Of a stretch of DNA of 32,850 nt, positions 20,967 through 32,850 are shown piece after piece. A program made the position numbers and the translations under genes. Under the pieces are notes generated by a model. The model worked only from the letters and a program-made list of their open reading frames with translations. It did no database searches and had not been told where the DNA came from. Source of the DNA: an uncultured Clostridia bacterium (GTDB lineage Bacteria; Bacillota; Clostridia; TANB77; CAG-508); contig CANRBK010000007.1 of assembly GCA_947628845.1 (NCBI GenBank), positions 1 to 32,850 on the forward strand. Direction: 5' to 3'. Numbering within the stretch: the first letter of the stretch is position 1; the number at the start of each line of letters is the position of its first letter.

Positions 20967-21050
20967 AATGTTAATATATAAATATTTTAAAGAAAGACCT
21001 AATGGTAGACCACAGATATGTTTTTCTGAAAATATTTATATATTAACATT
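20967..21050. repeat. 84-bp inverted repeat in the gltX leader
   Basis: Two perfectly complementary 22-base arms (20967-20988 and 21029-21050, each beginning or ending AATGTTAATATATAAA) flank a 40-base centre containing TGGTAGACCA. Inside the arms AGAAA/TTTCT pairing can extend the stem. TAT stands just outside both arms. It lies downstream of the minus-strand gltX promoter, so it would form a long hairpin in the gltX leader RNA. It could be a regulatory leader or a relic miniature inverted-repeat element. No T-box consensus was found in it. Confidence 0.8.
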
Positions 21051-21132: not shown

Positions 21133-23537
21133 ATGATAGATTTACTATCTCCCGTTGGAGATTTTGAATGTTTAAAAGCAGCTGTTCAAAATGGAGCTAA
21201 TAGTGTGTATTTTGGTGCAGACTTATTTAGTGCTAGAGCATTTGCTTCTAATTTTGATTTAGAAAATCTAGAAAAAGCAATAATATATGCAAAAACTCAT
21301 GGTGTAAAAACTAATTTAACTTTAAATACTCTAATAAAAGATAATGAATTTAATGATGCTTTTGAACTTGCTAAAAAGGCTTATGAATTTGGAATTGATG
21401 CAATTATTGTTCAAGATTTAGGTTTAGCTAAACAACTTATAAAGTATTTTCCTGACTTACCTATTCATGCAAGTACACAAATGTCTATACACAATCTTCA
21501 AGGTGTTTTAAAAATGCAAGAATTAGGCTTCAAAAGAGTTGTTTTAGCTCGTGAACTTTCAATTCAAGAAATTGAATATATATGTCAAAATTCTGATATA
21601 GAAATTGAATGTTTTATACATGGTGCATTATGTATTTCTTATTCAGGTCAATGTCTATTTTCTAGTATGATTGGAGGTCGTTCTGGTAATCGTGGAAAAT
21701 GTGCTCAAGCTTGTAGGCTTCCTTATGAATTATTAGAAAATGATAAAAAAATTGATAGTGGGCATCTTTTAAGTCCTCGTGATTTATGTGGACTTGATTT
21801 TATCCCGAATTTAATAAATGCTGGTGTTACATGTTTAAAAATTGAAGGAAGAATGAAAAATCCTGAATATGTTGCAATTGTTACTAATATTTATAGAAAA
21901 TATATTGATTTGGCTGAATCAAGTCAAAAATATGTAGTCGATGAAACTGATAGAAAAACTTTGTTACAAGCATTTAATAGAGGTATGTCATCAACTGGCC
22001 ATCTATCTAATGAGCCTAATAAAAACTTAATTTTCAAAGATAAGCCTAATAATATGGGATTACTTTTAGGTAAAGTTGAAAAATATAATAAAACTAAAGG
22101 TTATATTACAATAAAACTTAAAGAACCTATCGAGATTGGAGATACTATTTCTTTAGAAAAAGAAGATGGTACTTATAATGTTTCTGAATTGATGTTTAAA
22201 GGTAAAAATATTAAAGTAACTCAAATAGGTCAAACGATTACTATTGGTAGGATGAAAGGAAATATCAATTTAGGAGATAAAATATTTAAAATATCTTCTA
22301 AAAAATTAAATTCCATTGCTCAAGAAAGTATAAAGAATGAACATAGAAAGATTACATTAAATTGTAAAATTACTATTAAAAACAAGAAAACTATAAAATT
22401 AAATGTGACTTCAGCAAACGATATTGATATTTATGATGGTCTGAATATAAATTGTGAATCTGATATTATTCCTGATATTGCTAAAAATAAACCATTGGAA
22501 AAAGAAAGAGTTTTAACTCAATTAAATAAAACTCATGATTCAATGTATGAATTTAAAAATATCAATATTGAATTAGATGATGGTCTTTTTTTACCAAAAA
22601 TAAGTGTTCTAAATGAACTTAGAAGAACAGCTTTAGATTTAGTTTACAATTTTGCTGTAAATAATATCAAAAGAAGTTGTAAAGTAACTAACCATGATAA
22701 ATTAAAAAATGAATCTCCATCATGTAAAAGACAATTGTCTGTTTTGCTAAATATTTTGAATATTAATTTTGATTATTCAAAATTAGAAAATATAGATAAT
22801 ATTTATATTCCTTTAAATTATTTTTTTAGTAAAAAATACTCTAATATTATTTATACTTTAAGTCAAAAATTTAATTTATATATTTACATGCCTACAATAC
22901 TAAAAGCTAATTATAGTAATTTGTTTTATAATAATATTGAAAAAAACATTCAAAAATATAATATTAAAGGATTTGTAATTTCTAATATTTCTAATTTAAA
23001 ATTGTTAGAAGATTTAGGTAATAATTTTAATTTAATTGCTAATTATACTTTTAATATTTTTAATAAATACTCTGTTAATGAATTAAAACAATTAGGTATT
23101 ACAAGATTTACAATTTCACCAGAATCTGATAAAAACATCTTAGAAAATCTTTGTCGGTCGGAAATTGTTCTTTACCTAGTGAATTAATTATTTATGGAAA
23201 TACTCCTTTAATGAATATTAATTATTGTTTAACTGGAAAATCTAATAAATGTTACCCAACTTGTACTTCTAAATGTAACTCTAATAATAAGTACTATTTA
23301 AAAGATAGATTGAATTTAAATTTTAGAATTTTATTTGATAACTTTCAAACTATTTCTACTATATATAATAGCAAAATTACTTCTATGAAAACAGACGAAT
23401 TTAAGCCTAACATTTTAAGATTGGATTTTATAGATGAAGATATAGATAAAATCAATTATATTATTAAACAAGTTATATCTGGTAATAGATTGGAAGGAAA
23501 AGAATATACAAATGGCAATTTAAATAGAGAAATATAA
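21133..23537 (+). pseudogene. Peptidase U32-family protein, frameshifted
   Basis: The first frame runs 21133-23187 (684 residues) and carries the U32 domain: LLSPVGDFECLKAAVQNGAN (4-23), FIHGALCISYSGQCLFSS (about 161-178), NRGKCAQACRLPYEL and LKIEGRMKNPEYV. The rest of the family's C-terminal region (SLPSELIIYGNTPLMNINYC, then CYPTCTSKCN and YYLKDR) continues in another frame up to 23537. One base lost near 23160, probably in an A-run, restores NLCRSENCSLPSE. So the intact protein would be about 800 residues. U32 proteins of this kind are linked to RNA hydroxylation (RlhA/TrhP) or to collagenase activity; the substrate is unclear. It may be a sequencing error or a real break. Confidence 0.85.
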
Positions 23538-23587: not shown

Positions 23588-23905
23588 TTAAACTTGTCTA
23601 CTACTTAAATCAATTAATAAATCCATATTATCATCTTTTGCAGCTTTATTTTTTCTAATTGCTCCACATTTTTTACACTTAAAAACAATTATATATCCTT
23701 TTTTTCCATTTATTTCCATACTTACTGGTTCTAAATCCCCATGGCATTGTTCTGCTCTATCTCCTGGATTTTTATCTACATGTTTTGAGTGTAAACAATA
23801 TAGGCAATGGTTTCTGCATGAATATCCAAGTTTTGGGACTTTTTTTCCACAATTATCACATATAAATTCTTCATCAATTTCCGTAAATTTACTATTATTT
23901 AACAT
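23588..23905 (-). CDS. RNHCP-domain zinc-ribbon protein
   Basis: A 105-residue protein named by its motif: SCRNHCLYCLHSKHVD (29-44) carries the RNHCP-type signature, with CDNCGKKVP (16-24) before it and FKCKKCGAIRKNK (about 75-87) after it. Six to eight cysteines in CxxC pairs suggest two zinc sites. The family has no proven function. The 17 bases between its ATG and the palindromic element leave no room for an ordinary promoter, so it is read through from the nucleoside kinase gene or from a promoter in the element. AAAGGA precedes the ATG. Confidence 0.88.
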   Translation of the reverse strand: MLNNSKFTEIDEEFICDNCGKKVPKLGYSCRNHCLYCLHSKHVDKNPGDRAEQCHGDLEPVSMEINGKKGYIIVFKCKKCGAIRKNKAAKDDNMDLLIDLSSRQV

Positions 23906-23922: not shown

Positions 23923-24045
23923 AAAGTGACCCAAAAGGGACGTTGACCCAAAAGGGACGTTTACTTGTGGGTCACTTTTTTTTATATAAAGAATGACCCA
24001 CAAGTAAACGTCCCTTTTGGGTCAACGTCCCTTTTGGGTCACTTT
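23923..24045. repeat. Palindromic element, copy A (123 bp)
   Basis: Two perfect 52-base complementary arms (23923-23974 and 23994-24045) flank a 19-base AT loop. Each arm holds a 17-base unit (GACCCAAAAGGGACGTT) twice in tandem, the second followed by TACTTGTGGGTCA. The element starts 17 bases before the RNHCP ATG and ends 3 bases from the kinase stop codon. A second copy lies at 32687-32775. It resembles REP-like or miniature mobile palindromes that are moved in trans by Y1 (TnpA/RAYT) transposases, but no transposase is in the window. Confidence 0.9.
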
Positions 24046-24048
24046 TCT

Positions 24049-25692
24049 TTAATGCAAATCAAATGTCCCTCCTCCCAAAAATTCTTTTAATAATGAATTA
24101 TTTGGTACATATTCATTAGGTATTGGTTTAAAATATTTTAACATATTTATTAATCTTTGTGCTTCTGCATATTCTTTATAATCTCTACTTATTTCTTGTA
24201 ATAATCGCATTGCTATTTCTTTTAATGCACTTAATTCATATATTAATGATGTGTTGAATATTTTATCTGCATCTTCTTGAAATGGAAATATATTTTTTTC
24301 TTCTCCTCCAGTCACTTTATGCCATGTATTTAATGTATGTATTGCTGAATATCCTCTAAATTGATAGTCTCTTACTATTCTTCTTATTAGTCTTGTATCT
24401 GTAGTTGAAATTCTATTATATCTATCCATATTTAGTACTGTTAATGCACTTATATATATTTTATATTTTTGTTCTTTAGCAATTTGGCTTGTTAATTTAT
24501 CATTTAGGCAATGTATTCCTTCTATTACTAATATTTCATCTGATGCTAATTTTAATTTTTTACCATTATATCTTTTGGTTCCTACATGAAAATCAAATTC
24601 TGGCATTTCTATTTCTTCGCCATTTAGTAACTTTACGAGATGTTCATTAAATAATTTTAAATCTATTGCCTCTATACATTCAAAATTATATTCTCCATTT
24701 TCATCTCTAGGTGTATCTTGTCTTTCTACAAAATAATTATCTACTGATATTGTTACTGGTTTTAAGCCATTTAGCCTTAATTGAATTCCCAATCTTTGTG
24801 CAAATGTTGTTTTTCCAGATGATGATGGTCCTGCTATTAATACCATTTTTACATTTTTCCTATTGGCTATATCATCTGCTATATTTGCTATCTTTTTTTC
24901 ATGCAATGCTTCTGCTAACATTATTACATCTTTTATTCTATCTTCTGCTATTGCTTTATTTAATTTGTATACTGTATTTACATCTAATACTGAATGTATT
25001 TTTTCAAATTCTTCTAATGCCCATGCTAATTTTTTAGTTTCTTTAAATTCTGGCAATTCTGTTGGTTTTTTTGAGCTTGGATATCTAATTAAAAAGCCTT
25101 CTTCATATGGTACTACATCAAATTTTTGTATTACTCCTGTTCTGTTTGCTAATACCCCATAACAATAATTGTAATATTCTTGACAATAATACATATATAT
25201 TATATCGTTTTCTTTAAAATCATATTGTAACCTTCCCTTTGATGTATTTGTTTCTTCATAAAATTTTTGTGCCTCAGCTTTTGTCATTTCAACTTTTTTT
25301 ATTTCTAAATCAGCATCTATTATTTCTTTCATTTTTTCTTTTAAATTTTTTATGAATTCTTTTGTTATTGGTAGGTTATCACATTTACAAAACATTGCAT
25401 TTCCTAATTGATATTCTACAGTTATTTTTTCTTTTGGATATAAAGTTTCTAGTGCTTTTCCCATTATATACACAAGTGTTCTTCTGTAAATTTTCATTCC
25501 TTCTTTTGAAGATGTATCTATTAATTGTATCTTTGCATCTTCTTTTATTTTTGTATCTAAATTTTTATATTCATTATTATATATGCATCCTATAACTTCA
25601 TATTTATTTTTTTCTATTTCTTTTTTTAATACTTCTGATACTTTTTGTTCATAATCAACTTTTATTTTCTTTCTGTTATATTGTACTTCCAT
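24049..25692 (-). CDS. Nucleoside kinase with TGS and tRNA-synthetase-like SAD domains
   Basis: A 547-residue protein related to uridine kinase. Residues 1-60 are TGS-like, and about 60-220 resemble the second additional domain of threonyl-tRNA synthetase. A kinase domain follows: Walker A AGPSSSGKTTFAQRLG (about 284-299), SVDNYFV, then FDFHVGTKRYNGKKL and VIEGIHCLND (about 388-397). This arrangement is conserved in Clostridia and annotated as nucleoside kinase; whether the substrate is uridine is unproven. AGGAGG precedes the ATG. Its promoter is at 25722-25750, and the palindromic element begins just after the stop. Confidence 0.9.
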   Translation of the reverse strand: MEVQYNRKKIKVDYEQKVSEVLKKEIEKNKYEVIGCIYNNEYKNLDTKIKEDAKIQLIDTSSKEGMKIYRRTLVYIMGKALETLYPKEKITVEYQLGNAMFCKCDNLPITKEFIKNLKEKMKEIIDADLEIKKVEMTKAEAQKFYEETNTSKGRLQYDFKENDIIYMYYCQEYYNYCYGVLANRTGVIQKFDVVPYEEGFLIRYPSSKKPTELPEFKETKKLAWALEEFEKIHSVLDVNTVYKLNKAIAEDRIKDVIMLAEALHEKKIANIADDIANRKNVKMVLIAGPSSSGKTTFAQRLGIQLRLNGLKPVTISVDNYFVERQDTPRDENGEYNFECIEAIDLKLFNEHLVKLLNGEEIEMPEFDFHVGTKRYNGKKLKLASDEILVIEGIHCLNDKLTSQIAKEQKYKIYISALTVLNMDRYNRISTTDTRLIRRIVRDYQFRGYSAIHTLNTWHKVTGGEEKNIFPFQEDADKIFNTSLIYELSALKEIAMRLLQEISRDYKEYAEAQRLINMLKYFKPIPNEYVPNNSLLKEFLGGGTFDLH

Positions 25693-31366: not shown

Positions 31367-32113
31367 CTAATACATTCCTAGTGTAAATATTTCAAATAAT
31401 ATATTTTTTATTGTTTCAAATGGTACAAATATACTTATAAATGTTCCTAATACAATAAATGGTCCAAATGGTATGTATTCGTCCATTTTTTTTATTTTTG
31501 TCAATAATAATATTATACTTAATATTGCCCCAATTAAGAAAGATAACAATGTTATAGCTATTATGTTTGATAGTCCAAAATATATTCCTAATGCTCCCAT
31601 TAGTTTTACATCTCCAAATCCCATTGCTTCTTTCCCATATACTAAGCCACCTACTAAAGTAATTATTAAGAATATTCCTGCTCCTGCCAACATACCAAGT
31701 ATCATGTTTATTGTAATTGCTACATCTGATAGTCCATACAAAAACGCTGTTACTAATCCTACTTCAAATATAGTTAGATTTAGTCTATTGGGAATTATTT
31801 GTAGTTTGTAATCTATAACAAATGTTGATAATAGCATTGGTGTTAATATAATATATTTTATCAAGTCTAAGTTACCGATAAATGTGTTTTTTATTCCATA
31901 AGTATATAATAGTGCTATGTAAATTATTGGTGTTATTATGACTAATATATAGTTTGGTCTGAATTCATTAAAGTATTTTGTAAATATTTCCTTTGAAAAT
32001 ACTTTTTTATATTCTGGCAATCTTTTATTCATCCAATCTATTAACATGCCAACAAAGAGACCTAATATTGCTACAAATGCATAGTACCATATATTTGTTT
32101 CTTTAATATACAT
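31367..32113 (-). CDS. A24 prepilin peptidase, short form
   Basis: A 248-residue membrane protein with about seven helices. The catalytic Asp pair of type IV prepilin peptidases is visible in FVIDYKLQIIPN (about 97-108) and YGKEAMGFGDVKLMG (about 159-173, GFGDVKL motif). It lacks the N-terminal CxxC zinc/methylase domain of bifunctional PilD, but a first helix with FVGMLIDWMNKRLP takes its place. It could process pilin or pseudopilin-like proteins; none is in the window. The start overlaps yqeG by 11 bases, so translation is coupled. Confidence 0.88.
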   Translation of the reverse strand: MYIKETNIWYYAFVAILGLFVGMLIDWMNKRLPEYKKVFSKEIFTKYFNEFRPNYILVIITPIIYIALLYTYGIKNTFIGNLDLIKYIILTPMLLSTFVIDYKLQIIPNRLNLTIFEVGLVTAFLYGLSDVAITINMILGMLAGAGIFLIITLVGGLVYGKEAMGFGDVKLMGALGIYFGLSNIIAITLLSFLIGAILSIILLLTKIKKMDEYIPFGPFIVLGTFISIFVPFETIKNILFEIFTLGMY

Positions 32114-32621
32114 TTTTATTTTTCCCTTCTTTTGTTTTATAATTGTTCTTTATTCTTTTTTCTATTGGTCTTTTCCAAGCCGTATACCAATATTCTTTTT
32201 GTTCATTTATTGGGTCTACTAATATAGTAAACATTTTACATCTATTTCCTCCAAGTACATCTGTAAATATTTGATCTCCTACAACTCCTATATTTTCTGG
32301 TTGTACTTTTATTTGTTTTTGCACATATTTAAATCCTCTTTTTAGTGGTTTAGTTGCAAAATGTTTATATTGTATGTCTAGCTTGTCTGCTACTGATTTT
32401 ACTTTCTTTCTATCATATGTATTTGATAATATATATAATTTTATTCCCTGTCCTTTCATTTCTTTAGCCCATTGTATTATTTTTTCTGACAAGTTTTTAT
32501 AATAATCTATCAAAGTATTGTCTACATCTAATATTAATACTTTTATTTTATTTTTTATTAATGTTTCTATTGTTATATCTTCTATTTTTTTTAAATATAA
32601 ATTGGGATATAAATTTTTCAT
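32103..32621 (-). CDS. yqeG: YqeG-family HAD phosphatase
   Basis: A 172-residue HAD-superfamily phosphatase (IIIA type). The nucleophile motif is LILDVDNTLIDY (29-40), motif II is LYILSNTYDRKKV (about 62-74), KPLKRGF (about 92-98) gives the Lys, and VVGDQIFTDVLGGNR (about 113-127) supplies the metal Asp residues. Members of this family are phosphatidylglycerophosphate phosphatase-like (Gep4) or of unknown substrate. AAGGA precedes the ATG. It is the first gene of the operon. Confidence 0.93.
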   Translation of the reverse strand: MKNLYPNLYLKKIEDITIETLIKNKIKVLILDVDNTLIDYYKNLSEKIIQWAKEMKGQGIKLYILSNTYDRKKVKSVADKLDIQYKHFATKPLKRGFKYVQKQIKVQPENIGVVGDQIFTDVLGGNRCKMFTILVDPINEQKEYWYTAWKRPIEKRIKNNYKTKEGKNKNVY

Positions 32622-32657: not shown

Positions 32658-32686
32658 ATATTATCAATATGTTTTAGTTTTGTCAA
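32658..32686 (-). promoter_or_regulatory. Promoter of the yqeG-efp operon
   Basis: TTGACA (32681-32686), 17 bases, TAATAT (32658-32663), with TGA before the -10. The -35 box ends exactly where palindromic element B begins. Confidence 0.72.
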
Positions 32687-32775
32687 GACCCATTAGGGAC
32701 GTTGACCCATTAGGGACGTTTACTTGTGGGACATTTTATAAAAAATTTCCCACAAGTAAACGTCCCTAATGGGTC
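32687..32775. repeat. Palindromic element, copy B
   Basis: Complementary 28-base arms (32704-32731 and 32748-32775) flank a 16-base AT loop. The left side carries one more 17-base unit (GACCCATTAGGGACGTT, 32687-32703) that has no partner on the right. The unit is the same as in copy A except that AAAA in CCCAAAAGGG is ATTA here, in all copies on both arms. It is immediately upstream of the yqeG promoter. Confidence 0.88.
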
Positions 32776-32784
32776 ATTTAAGTT

Positions 32785-32809: not shown

Positions 32810-32850
32810 TATGTTTTCCACAAAATGAAAAATTTTATATAAAAATAAGG

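Follow-up and report, generated by a model that had tools for sequence, protein, structure and literature searches.

The window analysed here, a stretch of 32,850 nucleotides from an uncultured Clostridia bacterium, carries two palindromic elements, A and B, both of them intergenic (Table 1). Element A lies between an RNHCP-domain gene and a uridine-kinase-like gene, while element B, which spans 91 nt (32686-32776), is placed upstream of a yqeG-type phosphatase gene, 74 nt short of the contig end at position 32850. The sequence-only reading had counted four matching units in A and three in B. This count was borne out, as the window contained seven copies of the motif CCCANNAGGG, four of them CCCAAAAGGG in A (23930 and 23947 on the plus strand, 24012 and 24029 on the minus strand) and three CCCATTAGGG in B (32689 and 32706 on the plus strand, 32764 on the minus strand), when dinucleotide shuffles averaged 0.13 copies and never exceeded 3. 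The 35-nt arms of B were 97% complementary and both elements were predicted to fold stably as DNA (-40.8 kcal/mol, z -13.8 for B; -66.2 kcal/mol, z -19.1 for A); the additional head unit that had been described as unpaired in B indeed stayed outside its long stem. The further claim that each change is matched on the opposite arm held for the triplets of A and B and failed elsewhere: the right arm of B reads GGGAAA against GGGACA in the left one, and its outer unit starts with AGACCC instead of TGACCC, so the mirror rule is strong and imperfect. Among known RNA families, only a tRNA was matched in the window. A separate AT-rich inverted repeat was located upstream of a U32 peptidase gene.

Table 1. 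Features of the window, with positions counted from its first nucleotide.
Feature	Position	Strand	Remark
AT-rich inverted repeat	20967-21050		29-nt arms, 90%
U32 peptidase gene	21133-23187		
RNHCP-domain gene	23588-23905		neighbour of A
A, extra left 17-nt head unit	23927-23943	+	triplet AAA
A, left 35-nt unit	23944-23978	+	triplet AAA
A, 11-nt spacer	23979-23989		
A, right 35-nt unit	23990-24024	-	triplet AAA
A, extra right 17-nt head unit	24025-24041	-	triplet AAA; pairs with 23927-23943 in the fold
Uridine-kinase-like gene	24049-25692		neighbour of A
yqeG-type phosphatase gene	32103-32621		
B, extra 17-nt head unit (AGACCCATTAGGGACGT)	32686-32702	+	without partner on the opposite arm; outside the long stem in the fold
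B, left 35-nt unit (TGACCCA-TTA-GGGACGTTTACTTGTGGGACATTTT)	32703-32737	+	
B, 4-nt spacer	32738-32741		
B, right 35-nt unit	32742-32776	-	triplet TTA; single unmatched change GGGAAA

The two elements belong to a dispersed family. Reading the stretches around unit copies throughout the draft assembly (1.31 Mb, 87 contigs), we listed 49 units of 35 nt, including those of A and B, and 15 inverted pairs. The family consensus was TG[AT]CCCA-NNN-GGGACGTTTAC[CT]TG-TGGG[AT]CATTTT, in which variation is highest at the central triplet NNN and subfamilies are told apart by the inner C/T site. Both arms carried the same triplet in 10 out of 15 inverted pairs (2.1 on average in shuffles, P=3e-5) and the same inner C/T base in all 15 (7.5 on average, P=1e-4). 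Variation within a copy was thus lower than between copies genome-wide, as the sequence-only reading had anticipated, with five pairs of discordant triplet as exceptions. Extra head units were found on one arm in B, L011 (3281-) and L024 (1194-), and on both arms in A and also in L164, an element of the related genome G007. In the latter (G007:C82:1359-1541), each arm carries a nested double unit; the match is exact in the inner pair but not in the outer one, which would fit a homogenisation that is stronger toward the centre. At L006 (G000:C8:1-80), contig C8 opens inside a unit, after which come three degenerate head units (GGGCGT), forming an extended one-arm array whose opposite arm is lost at the contig end.

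A single gene of the genome matched Y1_Tnp above the cut-off (PF01797, 63 bits against a cut-off of 23). It is located directly upstream of radA and encodes a transposase of 257 aa whose translation contains NHVH and YIHQNP, the latter corresponding to the catalytic tyrosine motif Y-x-x-x-NP of the Y1 HUH domain. The best NCBIfam match was REP_Tyr_transpos (68.6 bits, below the curated cut-off of 80), far stronger than that of the IS200 profile (22.1 bits against a cut-off of 55). Since the gene was single-copy and the IS200 score fell far below the cut-off, an IS200/IS605 insertion sequence was discarded. A second Y1 match (C38, E=0.008) was below the cut-off, overlapped a long ORF read as an M16-type peptidase and is probably false. 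None of the solved structures matched the transposase by sequence. Family units bracket the gene in inverted orientation (L011, 815-849 on the plus strand and 1815-1849 on the minus strand), both with triplet TTG and T at the inner site. The occurrence of inverted dimers genome-wide, together with a RAYT bracketed by units, led us to reject a CRISPR-like array or a protein operator.

Relatives of the transposase were present in 35 of the 39 genomes sampled from the genus, and in 14 species, the source species included, the gene lay beside radA and had comparable units on its two sides. The sequence of these units was species-specific: left and right units shared an identity of 0.947 within species, the identity between left units of different species was 0.733, and the own right unit was the best match for 13 out of 14 left units. 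The flanking stems varied by species yet remained complementary (GTCC/GGAC, GTGA/TCAC, GTCG/CGAC), and the core amid them was conserved (GGGACGTTTC-type). A RAYT flanked by family units, together with such pairs at the radA locus across species, indicates that the elements are REPIN/TIR-type non-autonomous dimers of this RAYT, which most likely recognises and spreads the 35-nt units.

Most features of these elements are those of a known kind of mobile palindrome. As in TIRYT/TIRtron systems (Di Nocera 2013, PMC3733652) and in TnpA-Y1 subclass 2.1 (Quentin 2018, PMC6006769), which Quentin equates with TIRYT proteins, the Y1 transposase is long (257 aa), presents NHVH, FQ replacing the W motif and Y-x-x-x-NP, and lies between inverted repeats whose core is of the GGGGAC type and which are also dispersed as dimers. 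The placement in subclass 2.1, based on the length, the FQ motif and a weak HTH_7 match in one relative (L059, E=1.1e-4, just under the cut-off), is tentative, because YIHQNP also fits subclass 2.6; a profile search detected no C-terminal HTH extension in the transposase of the source genome itself. The flanking motif was GGGGACGT in the source genome, in contrast to GGGGWSAS, and some relatives (L041/L073 and L074) presented GGGGACAC. Moreover, subclass 2.1 genes had no REP-like sequences nearby in the survey of Quentin (PMC6006769), whereas here the gene is accompanied by the 49 units, and a search for the related core in twelve relatives returned 29 to 103 copies in ten of them and 7 and 1 in the other two. 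With REPINs and RAYTs (Bertels and Rainey 2011, PMC3116915) the elements share inverted doublets dispersed as such in many copies, a transposase gene present once with the unit on either side, and hairpins with compensatory arm changes. They differ in the hairpin foot, which lacks GTAG/GTGG (the consensus TGWCCCANNNGGGACGTTTACYTGTGGGWCATTTT has GTGG only inside TGTGGG), in the type of RAYT, in belonging to a Clostridia-related genus, and in that orthologues show inverted spacers and growth of the palindrome. The unit also resembles CGTC-tagged REPs (PMC3733652) in having, on the opposite strand, CGTC before a short inverted repeat; however, CGTC is followed here by CC..GG rather than by an 8-9 bp stem starting with AT, and the unit flanks a transposase gene, while CGTC-tagged REPs are said to have no associated transposase (PMC3733652). 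Finally, arm homogenisation and spacer inversion are also features of template-switch homogenisation and quasipalindrome correction (PMC8604942, PMC8794818), described in yeast genes and RNA hairpins, whereas here they concern bacterial mobile palindromes and are deduced from sequence.

The agreement between arms was not restricted to the source genome. In G025, the three-site haplotype was the same in both arms of 25 out of 31 dimers, when 2.6 were expected, and differed between arms in the other six. The interiors of L113, L098 and L120 were homologous, yet L113 departed from the other two at three sites, on each of its arms. Copies whose interiors are homologous showed 332 mirrored arm differences and 80 that affected one arm, in pairs that are not independent of each other. 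Concordance depended on the distance between arms: when the dimers of G025, G007 and G020 were pooled, loop-site mismatches were found in 0 out of 57 dimers with a gap shorter than 200 nt and in 6 out of 22 with longer gaps (Fisher P=2.7e-4), and any arm mismatch in 11 out of 57 and 11 out of 22, respectively (P=0.011), long-gap dimers often holding a second inserted element, so that gap and age are confounded.

A search of 54 other genomes from the genus and the order did not return the exact unit of the source genome. Orthologues of A and B could therefore not be compared directly, and two pairs of related species were used instead. The draft genomes of the sister species G020 and G007 (94% identity at the RAYT locus) provided ten orthologous or half-orthologous dimers. 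Mirrored changes in both arms were found in five (L173, L177, L182, L185 and L186), three of them at a single variable site (position 19), which makes a mutational hotspot a real caveat, and changes in one arm were as frequent (about six). In addition, the spacer was clearly inverted between the two species in L180/L144 (inverted score 51, direct score 9.9), L184/L160 (76 and 21.2) and L186/L158 (44 and 11.9), and the comparison suggested that those of L185 and L187 were also inverted. At L184/L160 the interior was the same but inverted and the arms unchanged, whereas at L177/L153 both arms had changed around a homologous interior retained in place. The spacer of L182 was a nearly full palindrome (0.95 self-complementarity) and that of its counterpart L151 was not. 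Spacer inversion was observed in this species pair only. In the second pair, G056 and G058, four comparable loci presented no mirrored arm differences, no inversions and one direct spacer, a result that was uninformative, speaking neither for nor against inversion. G007 lacked the L181 element of G020 at the orthologous site, where flanks 89-90% identical were directly adjacent, which could reflect an insertion in one species or a loss in the other. The interior or the whole element had been replaced at the orthologous sites L173/L133, L206/L218 and L183/L196, and the replaced interiors of the first two indicate that exchange among dispersed copies also occurs. At the third one, the outer ends of L196 (G007:C24) enclosed a palindrome unrelated to L183 (G020:C71), made up of GGGGACGGAGATAAAATCATC... 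with its complement, which is perhaps the unit of another RAYT.

The explanation that we favour, with a probability of roughly two in three, is that A and B are RAYT-linked mobile palindromes whose arms are homogenised by arm-to-arm copying. Inverted pairs of the 35-nt unit would be spread non-autonomously by the HUH Y1 RAYT encoded once beside radA and, after insertion, the evolution of the two arms of a dimer would be linked. They would pair in the course of replication or repair, and one would be copied onto the other, by template switching or by inter-arm recombination, homogenising them and at times inverting the spacer. Copying of more sequence across the arms would at times make the palindrome grow, a 17-nt head unit being duplicated in tandem on one arm (the state of B) and afterwards copied to the other (the state of A). 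The extra unit of B had already been read as a possible growth step; head units occurring on one arm or on both agree with such steps, and we infer that B is a precursor of A-like elements. In yeast, template switching between inverted repeats is reported to yield both arm homogenisation and spacer inversion (PMC8604942), and the homogenised arms, inverted spacers and extended arms described here fit either template switching or inter-arm recombination. The sequence-only reading had left the choice between arm copying and selection for pairing; mirrored changes, inverted or palindromic spacers and the distance effect favour copying as the probable main cause over pairing selection alone, and the discordant dimers of the source genome and G025 count against copying. 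Under selection, the RAYT or a cellular function would need a perfect hairpin, and a mutation in one arm would be followed by an independent compensating one. Compensatory changes in REPIN hairpins were read in this way by Bertels and Rainey (PMC3116915), and the very stable folds of A and B and the complementarity kept by the species-variable flanking stems agree with it; nevertheless, we consider it unlikely, since inverted spacers and a palindromic spacer are not predicted, discordant dimers persist and closely related genomes already show mirrored pairs of changes.

The arms might also be equal by inheritance, palindromic master dimers having each spread whole. The homologous interiors of many dispersed dimers imply that whole dimers move, and the C/T subfamilies are consistent with such masters, but both arms differ among copies with homologous interiors (L098 and L120 compared with L113) and between orthologues (L186/L158 and L177/L153, the latter contradicting this reading in part), and the symmetry of the masters would still need a cause, all of which renders common descent alone improbable. 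Similarly improbable is that the RAYT itself, rather than general replication slippage, drives the symmetry by repeatedly cutting and rejoining dimer units, flipping the spacer, copying the ends and adding head units; if true, this would constitute a dedicated palindrome-maintaining enzyme and would explain how REPIN symmetry is re-established after transposition. Even less weight was given to the overwriting of arms and spacer together by ectopic recombination or re-insertion. It would account for the unrelated interiors at the single site L173/L133, for the unrelated palindrome of G007 at the site of L183 and for the orthologous elements L174/L141 and L176/L165, which have only one flank in common and may mark chromosome rearrangement breakpoints. 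However, it conflicts with the homologous interior that stays at L177/L153 while both arms change and with the inverted interior between unchanged arms at L184/L160. That short-read assemblers made the arms alike or flipped the spacers is hardly credible: all genomes are drafts, contig C7 ending 74 nt after B and C8 beginning inside a unit, but an element of the size of B should fit within one ordinary short read, and several independent genomes and unique-flank loci agree.

Compensatory arm changes in REPINs have already been reported, and how a symmetric element re-forms once it has transposed was singled out as a key open issue (PMC3116915). What appears to be new is this family and its link to a subclass 2.1-like RAYT, which ties such a RAYT to abundant dispersed repeats that were unseen in an earlier survey (PMC6006769). 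Within the open literature, the evidence suggesting that symmetry is renewed by copying (inversion, distance and growth) also seems new. The symmetry of REPIN-type palindromes has so far been ascribed to hairpin selection (PMC3116915). Arm copying is a plausible and testable cause; were it the cause, 'compensatory' changes in a hairpin would by themselves be no evidence of selection. The genus is useful in this respect, as it offers many species that keep the same RAYT locus, each with units of its own and dozens of dimers, so that orthologous sites lend themselves to counts of mirrored changes, spacer inversions and arm growth. About half of the G025 dimers (L093-L096, L101, L103, L104, L106, L110, L117, L121 and L123) harboured an element of about 200 bp in either orientation, with AT-rich inverted ends of its own (ATTTATTACATTCCTCGGCTAACATTACATC...), which looks like a second miniature element inserting within dimers. 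A similar insertion distinguishes the orthologues L187/L149, being missing in G020 and present in G007.
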